A DNA stretch of 64,000 bases. Origin: Palaeococcus pacificus DY20341. GTDB taxonomy: Archaea; Methanobacteriota_B; Thermococci; Thermococcales; Thermococcaceae. The first letter of the stretch is position 1. Every line of letters starts with the position of its first letter. The translations under genes were made by a program, and so were the position numbers. Shown piece by piece: positions 1,392 to 53,692 of the stretch. The stretch covers positions 1,648,480-1,712,479 of the forward strand of contig NZ_CP006019.1 in NCBI RefSeq assembly GCF_000725425.1, in the 5' to 3' direction. Below the pieces are notes generated by a model. That model worked only from the letters and a program-made list of their open reading frames with translations, was not told the origin of the DNA and ran no database searches.

Positions 1392-1446
1392 CGGTCAGGG
1401 GCCGATTAGCTCATCACCACTCAGCAACCTACCTTCACATCATCCC
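1391..1446 (-). ncRNA. Candidate C/D-box guide sRNA in the 3' region of the radical SAM gene
   Basis: Read on the minus strand this stretch has full C/D-box architecture: C box ATGATGT (1443-1437, one mismatch to RUGAUGA), a 12-nt guide (1436-1425), D' box CTGA (1424-1421), a 3-nt spacer, C' box GTGATGA (1417-1411), a second 12-nt guide GCTAATCGGCCC (1410-1399) and D box CTGA (1398-1395). Two 12-nt guides and a 3-nt spacer are what Pyrococcus and Thermococcus sRNAs show. The terminal stem is short. There is no promoter of its own; it starts about 10 bases after the stop of the radical SAM gene, so it may be processed from that mRNA. By the N+5 rule the first guide would direct 2'-O-methylation of a C, and so would the second. 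I could not name the targets. Confidence 0.72.
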
Positions 1447-1454
1447 TACCATTT

Positions 1455-2386: not shown

Positions 2387-3126
2387 CATTCATCCTTTCC
2401 ATAGCGCTCTTCAATTATTTTTTCGACTAATTCGAGCTCATAATCTGTCAGCTCACCTTCTTCAAGTGGGAACTCCTCAAAGAACTTCTGCTTTAGGAGC
2501 TCATACACTTCCATCATTGCCATCTCCACGCCTTCACGCTCGAGCGTCGTTACGCGTTCCCAAATGCTGCTCACACCTTTATCGGCAAGCTTCTTTTTCG
2601 AGACCTTGAGGACGGAAGCTAGAATGTCCACCCTGGTTGCATACATAAAGGTGCCGTGCTGGAGTATAACACCTTTTCTCCTGGTTTGGGCAGAACCGCT
2701 TATCTTCTTGCCGTTTGCTATAATGTCGTTCAACCCAGCAAAATCCGCGTTTAGGCCAAGCTCTCTCAACGCAGCCACTAATGGAGAGGCCAAAAAGCGA
2801 TAGCTCGCATTGATGTCCTTTAAGTCTGGGTGAGCGTTTTCGCCAATAATCACTCCATAGGTTATCTCACCATATTCGTCATGAAAGACGCTCCCACCAC
2901 CCGTAATTCTCCTCACAACTGGGATGTTAAGTTCACGGCACTTGTCCATGTCAACATCGTGCTCAACACTCTGAAACCGCCCTATTGTTATAGAACTCGG
3001 CTTAAAGATGTACAGCCTAACAGTATCCTCAACTCTACCCTCTATCCTAGCCCTCATTATAGCCTCATCTATCGCCATTTGAATCTCTGGACGCGCTGCT
3101 ATAATCGGTATAAATCGCATATTCAT
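2371..3126 (-). CDS. lplA: Lipoate-protein ligase, N-terminal catalytic domain (LplA-N type)
   Basis: A 251-residue BPL/LplA-fold enzyme expected to attach lipoate or octanoate to lysines of E2 or glycine-cleavage H proteins. The RRITGGGSVFHD motif (about residues 71-82) binds the acyl-adenylate, and KKISGSAQTRRKG (about residues 140-152) carries the catalytic lysine. The protein ends after the catalytic domain: the C-terminal accessory domain of E. coli LplA is absent, as in the bipartite archaeal ligases whose C-domain is a separate polypeptide. Its ATG begins inside the stop codon of the upstream gene (TAATG), and the radical SAM gene follows after 88 bases, so the three genes form an operon. 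Confidence 0.85.
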   Translation of the reverse strand: MNMRFIPIIAARPEIQMAIDEAIMRARIEGRVEDTVRLYIFKPSSITIGRFQSVEHDVDMDKCRELNIPVVRRITGGGSVFHDEYGEITYGVIIGENAHPDLKDINASYRFLASPLVAALRELGLNADFAGLNDIIANGKKISGSAQTRRKGVILQHGTFMYATRVDILASVLKVSKKKLADKGVSSIWERVTTLEREGVEMAMMEVYELLKQKFFEEFPLEEGELTDYELELVEKIIEERYGKDEWNFSR

Positions 3127-3479
3127 TACCTCTCAACGCTTGCTTCTATCTCCTCCACTTCATCCATAATCTCTTCCTCTTCTTCCTCCAAGAGGAACTG
3201 CTCCTCAAGCTTCTCTTCCATGGCAAATTTCTTTCTCTCCTTCATTGTAAGCTTTTCAGCCTCAGCAACCATGTTTAAGAGAACAGCAGCCAATCTAGCA
3301 GCAGTTTCAGTTCTAAGTGAAGCTTTAGCCTCAACGTCTTCGTTGTGTATTACCATGCTAACGTTTGCAGGCCTAAAGTTGCCGTAGTTATCAATATGCG
3401 CTTCCCAAAGGCTTAGAGCAATGTACTTATCCTTTGAGCCCATATAAATCCTAATAGTGTATCTCGGTCTGTTCGTCAT
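3126..3479 (-). CDS. Small protein with acidic C-terminal tail, function unknown
   Basis: A 117-residue protein that I do not recognise. Residues 1-75 look like a compact alpha/beta domain (starting MTNRPRYTIRIYMGSKDKYI), followed by a helical segment and a run of glutamates (LLEEEEEEIMDEVEEIEA). It is the first gene of the lipoate operon and overlaps the ligase by one base. It is not obviously the missing LplA C-terminal domain, because the glycine-lysine pattern at that domain's start is not seen. A role with the ligase is suggested only by position. Confidence 0.65.
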   Translation of the reverse strand: MTNRPRYTIRIYMGSKDKYIALSLWEAHIDNYGNFRPANVSMVIHNEDVEAKASLRTETAARLAAVLLNMVAEAEKLTMKERKKFAMEEKLEEQFLLEEEEEEIMDEVEEIEASVER

Positions 3480-3524: not shown

Positions 3525-3538
3525 AAAAGATTTAAAAG
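3525..3538 (+). promoter_or_regulatory. BRE/TATA box for the C/D sRNA and metal exporter
   Basis: AAAAGATTTAAAAG gives a purine BRE and a TATA box (TTTAAAAG, 3531-3538). Transcription would start about 25 bases downstream, at roughly 3558-3561, exactly where the terminal stem of the C/D sRNA begins. Confidence 0.5.
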
Positions 3539-3559
3539 TTCCTCCTCAAACTTTCTAAC

Positions 3560-3617
3560 ACCCAATGAAGAGTTCAGCCTTACCTGAGTTGTGATGAGGG
3601 AGTGACGGACTGAGGGT
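3560..3617 (+). ncRNA. C/D-box guide sRNA with both guides matching 16S rRNA
   Basis: Seen directly: a terminal stem ACCC/GGGT (3560-3563 with 3614-3617), C box ATGAAGA (3565-3571, one mismatch), a 12-nt guide GTTCAGCCTTAC (3572-3583), D' CTGA (3584-3587), spacer GTT, C' GTGATGA (3591-3597), a 12-nt guide GGGAGTGACGGA (3598-3609) and D CTGA (3610-3613). From memory of archaeal 16S rRNA, the second guide is complementary to CCGUCACUCC at the base of helix 44 and the first to AAGGCUGAA in the central pseudoknot region. The N+5 rule would give U1406 and about G902 (E. coli numbering) as methylation sites. The RNA ends six bases before the CDF start codon, and its 3' stem contains the only ribosome-site-like sequence of that gene. 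Confidence 0.8.
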
Positions 3618-3622
3618 CAAAA

Positions 3623-4483
3623 ATGGACAATGTATACAAGCCCATGGTCGTTAGCATTGTGGGGAACATTATTCTGGCAGTCCTAAAGGTTACTGTGGGT
3701 GTTATATACTCCAGCTTAGCATTAATCTCCGATGGAATCCACTCACTATCTGACATCATAACAAGCATAATAGGGAGCTTGGGTATAAAGATCTCTTCAA
3801 AGCCTCCAGATGAGAGTCATCCATTTGGACACTCGCGTTTTGAGGCCCTCTTTGCATTTTTCATTGGTATGGCACTGTTTCTAGTGGCGTATGAAATAGG
3901 GAGAGACTCTATAAGTCGGGTGCTCTCGGGATACTCACTAGAAGTAAACGCCATAATGTTAGGCGTCACCGTGATTTCAATCATCTCAAAGGAAGCAATG
4001 ACTCAATATTCCCTTAGAGTAGGAAGAAAGCTCAACAACCAGATACTCATAGCTGATGCTTACCACCATAGGAGTGATGCTTTGAGCAGTGTAGCTGTTC
4101 TAATAGGACTTTTGCTCCAAAAGTTTGGCTTTATCTATGGAGATGCTTTAGCCGGCCTTATAGTGGCTGTTTTAATAGGAAAGGTTGCAGTTGAAGTTGT
4201 GCTTAAAAATGTGAGCTATTTGACGGGCACTTCCCCTCCTTTTGAGCTCTGCGAGAAAATAAAGAAAACAGCACTTAGCGTAAAAGGCGTTGAAGGAGTG
4301 CACGACCTTAGGGCACACTATGTGGGGCCAAAGCTCCACGTTGAGCTCCACATAGAAGTTCCAATGACTCTAACGCTGAAAGAAGCACACGACATAAGTG
4401 AAGAGGTTAGGGAAAGAATTGAACGCCTTGAAGAAGTGGAGAGGGCCTTTGTGCATGTCGATATAAAAGGGGTTACAAAGTAG
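3623..4483 (+). CDS. Cation diffusion facilitator (CDF) metal efflux transporter
   Basis: A 286-residue membrane protein expected to export divalent metal (Zn, Mn, Fe or Co) in exchange for protons. There are about six transmembrane helices in residues 10-200. The metal-site motifs are SDGIHSLSD in helix 2 and AYHHRSDAL in helix 5, both giving HxxxD patterns; HPFGHSR lies between helices 2 and 3. A cytoplasmic C-terminal domain follows (residues 205-286, with HVELHIEVP and the late HVDIKG). The start ATG lies just after a C/D sRNA, so both may share one promoter. It ends 11 bases inside the convergent decarboxylase gene. Confidence 0.9.
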   Translation: MDNVYKPMVVSIVGNIILAVLKVTVGVIYSSLALISDGIHSLSDIITSIIGSLGIKISSKPPDESHPFGHSRFEALFAFFIGMALFLVAYEIGRDSISRVLSGYSLEVNAIMLGVTVISIISKEAMTQYSLRVGRKLNNQILIADAYHHRSDALSSVAVLIGLLLQKFGFIYGDALAGLIVAVLIGKVAVEVVLKNVSYLTGTSPPFELCEKIKKTALSVKGVEGVHDLRAHYVGPKLHVELHIEVPMTLTLKEAHDISEEVRERIERLEEVERAFVHVDIKGVTK

Positions 4484-35636: not shown

Positions 35637-35712
35637 TGGTAGCCCCGCGGGGATTCGAACCCCGGTCGCGGGATCCAAAGTCCCGCATGCTTGGCCGCTA
35701 CACCACGGGGCT
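35637..35712 (-). tRNA. tRNA-Gln (anticodon UUG)
   Basis: On the minus strand a complete cloverleaf is seen. The acceptor AGCCCCG pairs with CGGGGCT, and the anticodon arm CGGGA-CTTTGGA-TCCCG has a 7-base loop reading TTG at positions 34-36. The T arm is CGGGG-TTCGAAT-CCCCG, the discriminator is A and the CCA end (35639-35637) is encoded. No intron is present. A TATA box TTTATAAA lies at 35741-35748, the right distance upstream. Confidence 0.95.
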
Positions 35713-53374: not shown

Positions 53375-53692
53375 GGCGAGAGGGCTGGGGCTTTCCGCAA
53401 GGAGGAAGTTCCGCCCACCTCACCGGGGCCGCGGTGCCGCAAGGCACCTCCCGAGAGGGAGGGCAACGGAGCAGAAACGACACGTCCCCACAAAAATGTG
53501 AATGAAGGCGGCGAAGGCCTTCGGCAACGAAGGCCGAGCTAACCCGCAGACGATTTGTGGGGGATCGGTGAAACGGCCGTCCCGTGGGGTGCAAGGCCGA
53601 GAAAGGGGCAATGAAGTCCCGGTGCGAGCCCCGTGGTAGGCCGCTTAGTCGAATGCCCCTGAATACAGAAGGCGGGCTATAGCCCTCTCGCC
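53375..53692 (+). ncRNA. rnpB: RNase P RNA, archaeal type A
   Basis: The 12-base P1 helix is perfect: GGCGAGAGGGCT (53375-53386) with AGCCCTCTCGCC (53681-53692). Between them lie the conserved GGAAGTTCCGCCC (CR-I), GAGGGAGGGCAACGGAGCAG (part of CR-II/III), CAGAAACG, and near the 3' end ACAGAAGGCGGGCTATAG (CR-V). The RNA is the catalytic core of RNase P, which trims tRNA 5' leaders. It is strongly GC-rich, as for stable RNAs in hyperthermophiles, and is followed by a short T run (53697-53700). A weak TATA-like TTTTTAA lies at about 53346-53352. Confidence 0.95.

Follow-up and report, generated by a model that had tools for sequence, protein, structure and literature searches.

A copy of the archaeal C/D-box sRNA sR60, a predicted guide to U1406 and G902 of 16S rRNA, lies directly upstream of a cation-efflux gene in Palaeococcus pacificus

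The genome of Palaeococcus pacificus consists of a single contig of 1,859,370 bases with two identical 16S rRNA genes, and the window considered here is a stretch of 64,000 nucleotides of that contig. Near one end of the window, a C/D-box small RNA (sRNA) occupies positions 3560–3617 of the forward strand and is followed on the same strand by a CDF cation-efflux gene (286 aa; 3623–4483; PF01545, E = 1.5e-47, and PF16916), with 5 nt between the end of the sRNA terminal stem at 3617 and the ATG at 3623. A gene for a 117-aa protein (3126–3479, reverse strand) diverges from the sRNA; it has no Pfam match and is conserved in the genus of the window and in another genus, labelled g4. Elsewhere, the window carries the archaeal RNase P RNA (RF00373, 199.5 bits; 53376–53691, forward strand), a tRNA gene (35640–35712, reverse strand) and a second known C/D-box sRNA, sR36 (RF01124, 72.2 bits; 1393–1447, reverse strand), located just past the stop codon of a radical-SAM gene.

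The sRNA is a member of a known family, i.e., a copy of sR60, which has been catalogued in heat-loving archaea. A cmscan search of the whole window matched positions 3561–3615 to the full length of the Rfam model RF01309 (model positions 1–55 of 55), scoring 67.6 bits where the gathering threshold is 50 (E = 1.8e-14), and since this RNA is already listed as a guide, its identification is not news. It displays the layout of an archaeal C/D-box methylation guide, in which boxes C, D′, C′ and D follow one another in order with guides of about 12 nt, a short spacer and a terminal stem able to support the k-turn. From 5′ to 3′, the sequence reads as the 5′ arm of the stem (ACCC, 3560–3563), box C (ATGAAGA, 3565–3571, one change from RUGAUGA and also recognizable by column conservation), a 12-nt D′ guide (GTTCAGCCTTAC, 3572–3583), box D′ (CTGA, 3584–3587), a 3-nt spacer (GTT, 3588–3590), box C′ (GTGATGA, 3591–3597), a 12-nt D guide (GGGAGTGACGGA, 3598–3609), box D (CTGA, 3610–3613) and the 3′ arm of the stem (GGGT, 3614–3617), which pairs with the 5′ arm. 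Boxes and guides are shared with the RF01309 model, from which this copy differs by its ACCC/GGGT stem (CGG/CC in the model), its box C ATGAAGA and its D′–C′ spacer GTT. A TATA box, TTTAAA (3531–3536, within GAAAAGATTTAAAAG), stands 29 nt before the stem and would serve sR60 and probably a joint sR60–CDF transcript; a TATA-like hexamer is found between −34 and −22 in 63 of 71 related loci, compared with a mean of 3.7 and a maximum of 10 after shuffling. An earlier note on this DNA had described all boxes, two 12-nt guides, a 3-nt spacer, a terminal stem, a correctly placed TATA box and a position beside the start of a metal exporter, each of which was located as described.

Both guides can pair with the 16S rRNA of the same organism. 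The D guide forms 10 contiguous Watson-Crick pairs with 16S positions 1347–1356 and places the N+5 nucleotide at U1350, whereas the D′ guide forms nine with positions 842–850 and places it at G844. These nucleotides correspond to U1406 and G902 of Escherichia coli, as assigned by the offsets from the universal 1392–1406 and 907 primer sites, respectively. The earlier note had proposed matches of about ten bases at the start of helix 44 (U1406) and of about nine in the central pseudoknot (near G902); alignment to the organism's own 16S bears out both, in a register compatible with the N+5 rule and beyond the eight contiguous pairs that the note had set as a minimum. Among the 30 best-scoring of the 45 tRNA genes, no in-register match exceeded 7 bp, and tRNA targets were dropped. 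So were 23S targets, for which a scan that had one 23S copy in antisense gave at most 8 pairs including one G-U. In one of the two 23S genes, L004 (G000:C1:764909-767965), a 32-nt segment (ATAAGGCCTGAAGGCATCTAAGGCCGAAGCGG) is duplicated exactly in tandem; the other gene, L003, lacks this repeat, which is either real or an assembly error.

Pair counts are weak evidence by themselves, because guides shuffled 5000 times each and compared with 16S and 23S in the correct strands equalled the real pairing in 55 cases for the D guide (about 1%) and in 302 for the D′ guide (about 6%). Taken in isolation, such frequencies would suit a chance array of box-like motifs without any functional RNA, but this explanation deserves practically no credence given a covariance-model score far over the cut-off and the conservation of sR60 in six genera with compensatory changes in the stem. 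It is thus the phylogenetic pattern, and not the number of pairs, that settles the pairing of the guides. sR60 scores over the cut-off in 90 of 94 Thermococcaceae genomes, and the other families of the class yielded no match at E 1e-6. Among 70 tabulated copies from Thermococcaceae (52 of 50 nt and 18 of 52 nt), all 10 pairing positions of the D guide (GGAGTGACGG) and eight of the nine pairing positions of the D′ guide (TTCAGCCT) are invariant in the 52 aligned 50-nt copies, in which position 12 of the D guide and positions 1–2 of the D′ guide vary. The 18 longer copies carry the same guides, so that TTCAGCCT and GGAGTGACGG are common to the tabulated copies and sR60 of the window has the two guides of RF01309. 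The two inner pairs of the terminal stem are Watson-Crick in 70 of 70 copies, through three compensatory types (CCC/GGG, YGG/CCG and AAA/TTT). Nearly invariant pairing bases, variable unpaired positions and a compensating stem are the pattern expected from selection on pairing with 16S. In one locus, L038 (G074), box D reads CTGG instead of CTGA, next to a G-rich stretch that precedes the CDF start, and is possibly decaying or altered.

sR60 is very probably a Thermococcaceae C/D-box sRNA that guides the 2′-O-methylation of U1406 and G902 and possibly also holds both segments during 30S assembly. Whereas its anatomy, pairing and conservation are direct observations, its expression, assembly into a ribonucleoprotein (RNP) and methylation activity are deduced from the family. 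sR60 would associate with L7Ae, Nop5 and fibrillarin to form a C/D RNP, which would base-pair with 16S where helix 44 begins and in the helix 27/central pseudoknot region, the D guide then directing a 2′-O-methyl group to U1406 and the D′ guide another to G902 (E. coli numbering); the same RNP may simultaneously hold these two distant segments together while the 30S subunit assembles. Because the pairing bases are nearly invariant, U1406 and G902 stand as clear and testable predictions for Thermococcaceae ribosomes. It is quite improbable that sR60 acts chiefly as an RNA chaperone, joining the regions around 902 and 1406 while the subunit assembles and directing methylation rarely or never, since the intact N+5 geometry of both guides and the presence of all boxes are what would be expected for methylation; nevertheless, both guides target one rRNA at sites about 500 nt apart, and the 902 and 1406 segments both lie near the decoding site in the established ribosome structure. 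Chaperone use of double-guide sRNAs has been proposed for archaea (PMC4644070). Moreover, the nearest experimental test of these sites counts against methylation: the Pyrococcus abyssi 30S structure, solved at 3.2 Å and combined with mass spectrometry, lists ten non-acetyl modifications, including Am373 and Cm1376 (E. coli 1402), and neither predicted site is among them, there being no ribose methyl at 1380, the equivalent of U1406 given that C1381 corresponds to E. coli C1407, or at G902, although such a map may miss 2′-O-methyls or partial sites (PMC7005279). It is mainly this list that keeps the chaperone alternative open beside the methylation-guide function favoured here.

The second aspect of the locus is the constancy of its downstream neighbour. 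In each of the 75 genomes with a CDF ortholog (cut-off E 1e-50), this gene directly follows sR60 and is read in the same direction, and the CDF neighbour appears to be ancestral in Thermococcaceae. By comparison, the adjacency of sR36 to the radical-SAM gene was found in 1 of 52 genomes, a contrast that is suggestive, as it is drawn with a single yardstick. The distance between sR60 and CDF varies from 7 to 144 nt across genomes and from 7 to 20 nt in the genus of the window and in g4; it amounts to at least 96 nt in 29 of the 58 measured loci and to less than 70 nt in the other 29. Most gaps of at least 96 nt contain a promoter-like element of CDF's own, and a palindrome of the TGTGCATATGCACA type precedes CDF in 23 of these 29 long-gap loci (including L007, L014 and L055) and in 0 of the 29 with gaps under 70 nt. 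Many of the 23 loci also bear a TTAGGCTAAC-type element before CDF, and both kinds of element look like operators of metal regulators. On the other side of sR60, a further sRNA, sR1 (RF01152), is often found in tandem just upstream in g2, g3, g5 and g6 (e.g., L046, L014, L009, L049, L007, L055 and L065), and was seen in no locus of the window's genus or of g4; the last guide of sR1 (..GGTGATCG) is similar to the sequence complementary to the 3′ terminus of 16S rRNA.

The association is not reciprocal, as 15 genomes, some of them incomplete assemblies, have sR60 with no CDF ortholog found. In several CDF-less genomes, mfnA, a frequent downstream neighbour of CDF, now directly follows sR60, and at L018, L065 and L071 C-terminal remnants of CDF alone (approximately codons 262–286) persist near the sRNA, a configuration that reads as loss of the exporter gene and retention of the sRNA. 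Its retention where CDF is missing or reduced to remnants indicates that sR60 is kept for its own sake and that its main job is independent of its CDF neighbour. The idea that sR60 is a leader element dependent on the downstream CDF gene was accordingly ruled out: the gap varies, the ribosome site of CDF is distinct from sR60 in a close relative, and the 15 genomes mentioned above lack a detected CDF.

In P. pacificus itself, the two genes are nonetheless likely to share a transcript, because no further TATA-like hexamer separates the sR60 TATA box from the CDF start (3540–3622). For the same reason, sR60 would also account for nearly all of the 5′ leader of the CDF transcript in this species, and it probably forms the 5′ UTR of the CDF mRNA in the short-gap genomes in general. 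The only Shine-Dalgarno (SD)-like sequence of the CDF gene is a weak GAGG at 3612–3615, inside box D and the 3′ arm of the sR60 stem, an overlap that the earlier note had pointed out and from which it had suggested that production of the RNA and translation of the exporter may compete. The overlap stands, as does the neighbourhood in 75 of 75 genomes, and such competition is possible in P. pacificus. As a conserved arrangement, however, competition for the ribosome site was ruled out, since several short-gap relatives, namely L036 of the same genus and L039, L042, L044, L073 and L074 (including several g4 loci), possess a separate GGTGAT site between the stem and the CDF start.

In the short-gap genomes, sR60 might also act in cis on CDF, either because snoRNP assembly or excision from the common transcript hides or removes GAGG, which would impose a trade-off between RNA and exporter, or because excision, at 3617 in the window, leaves CDF with an essentially leaderless mRNA (a 5-nt leader). 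This reading is compatible with the methylation-guide explanation, and both may hold. It is unlikely overall: the overlap is not conserved, half of the measured loci have long gaps, mostly with the TGTGCATATGCACA-type palindrome, and sR60 persists without CDF. In its favour are the single TATA box at 3531, which makes a shared transcript the simplest assumption, the location of the SD-like sequence in the D box and stem, and an adjacency far more regular than that of sR36 and its neighbour. It would also agree with reporter tests in which overlap of a C/D-box sRNA with the 5′ end of a gene lowered transcription of the downstream gene; because such 5′ overlaps are reported for about 7% of archaeal C/D sRNA genes, with reduced downstream transcription, the arrangement of an sRNA before an open reading frame is unusual but already described (PMC7994747). 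Leaderless mRNAs, for their part, account for about 14% of the mRNAs of Thermococcus kodakarensis (PMC4247193). A more specific version, in which the guide RNA of Palaeococcus-like genomes and of g4 would be carved from the leader of the exporter mRNA, its maturation leaving a near-leaderless mRNA and coupling decoding-centre methylation with metal export on one transcript, is decidedly doubtful; if it were true, the linkage that runs through Thermococcaceae would be what this coupling has left behind. A fixed linkage from which some species have lost the exporter and kept the RNA offers a clean natural setting in which to ask whether a leader-borne guide affects its mRNA.

What may be added here to the catalogued family is small, namely a fixed link between sR60 and CDF and, in two genera, a probable leader common to both; a search of the available literature for sR60 by name returned nothing relevant, and the fixed adjacency is possibly unreported so far. 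With respect to function, sR60 resembles the double-guide sRNAs that act on distant 16S sites (Dennis et al., 2015, PMC4644070), as its two guides target positions of one rRNA that are distant in sequence and near in structure; the helix 44 sites given in the main text of that study correspond to E. coli A1408 and G1494, and 1406 does not appear there. With respect to gene organization, it resembles the C/D-box sRNAs that overlap or abut the 5′ end of a downstream open reading frame (Tripp et al., 2017, reviewed in PMC7994747), in that a start codon of the same strand comes immediately after the sRNA. It differs from that class in that the start codon lies 5 nt past the stem, so that the overlap concerns the SD-like sequence only, and in that six genera retain the same neighbour.
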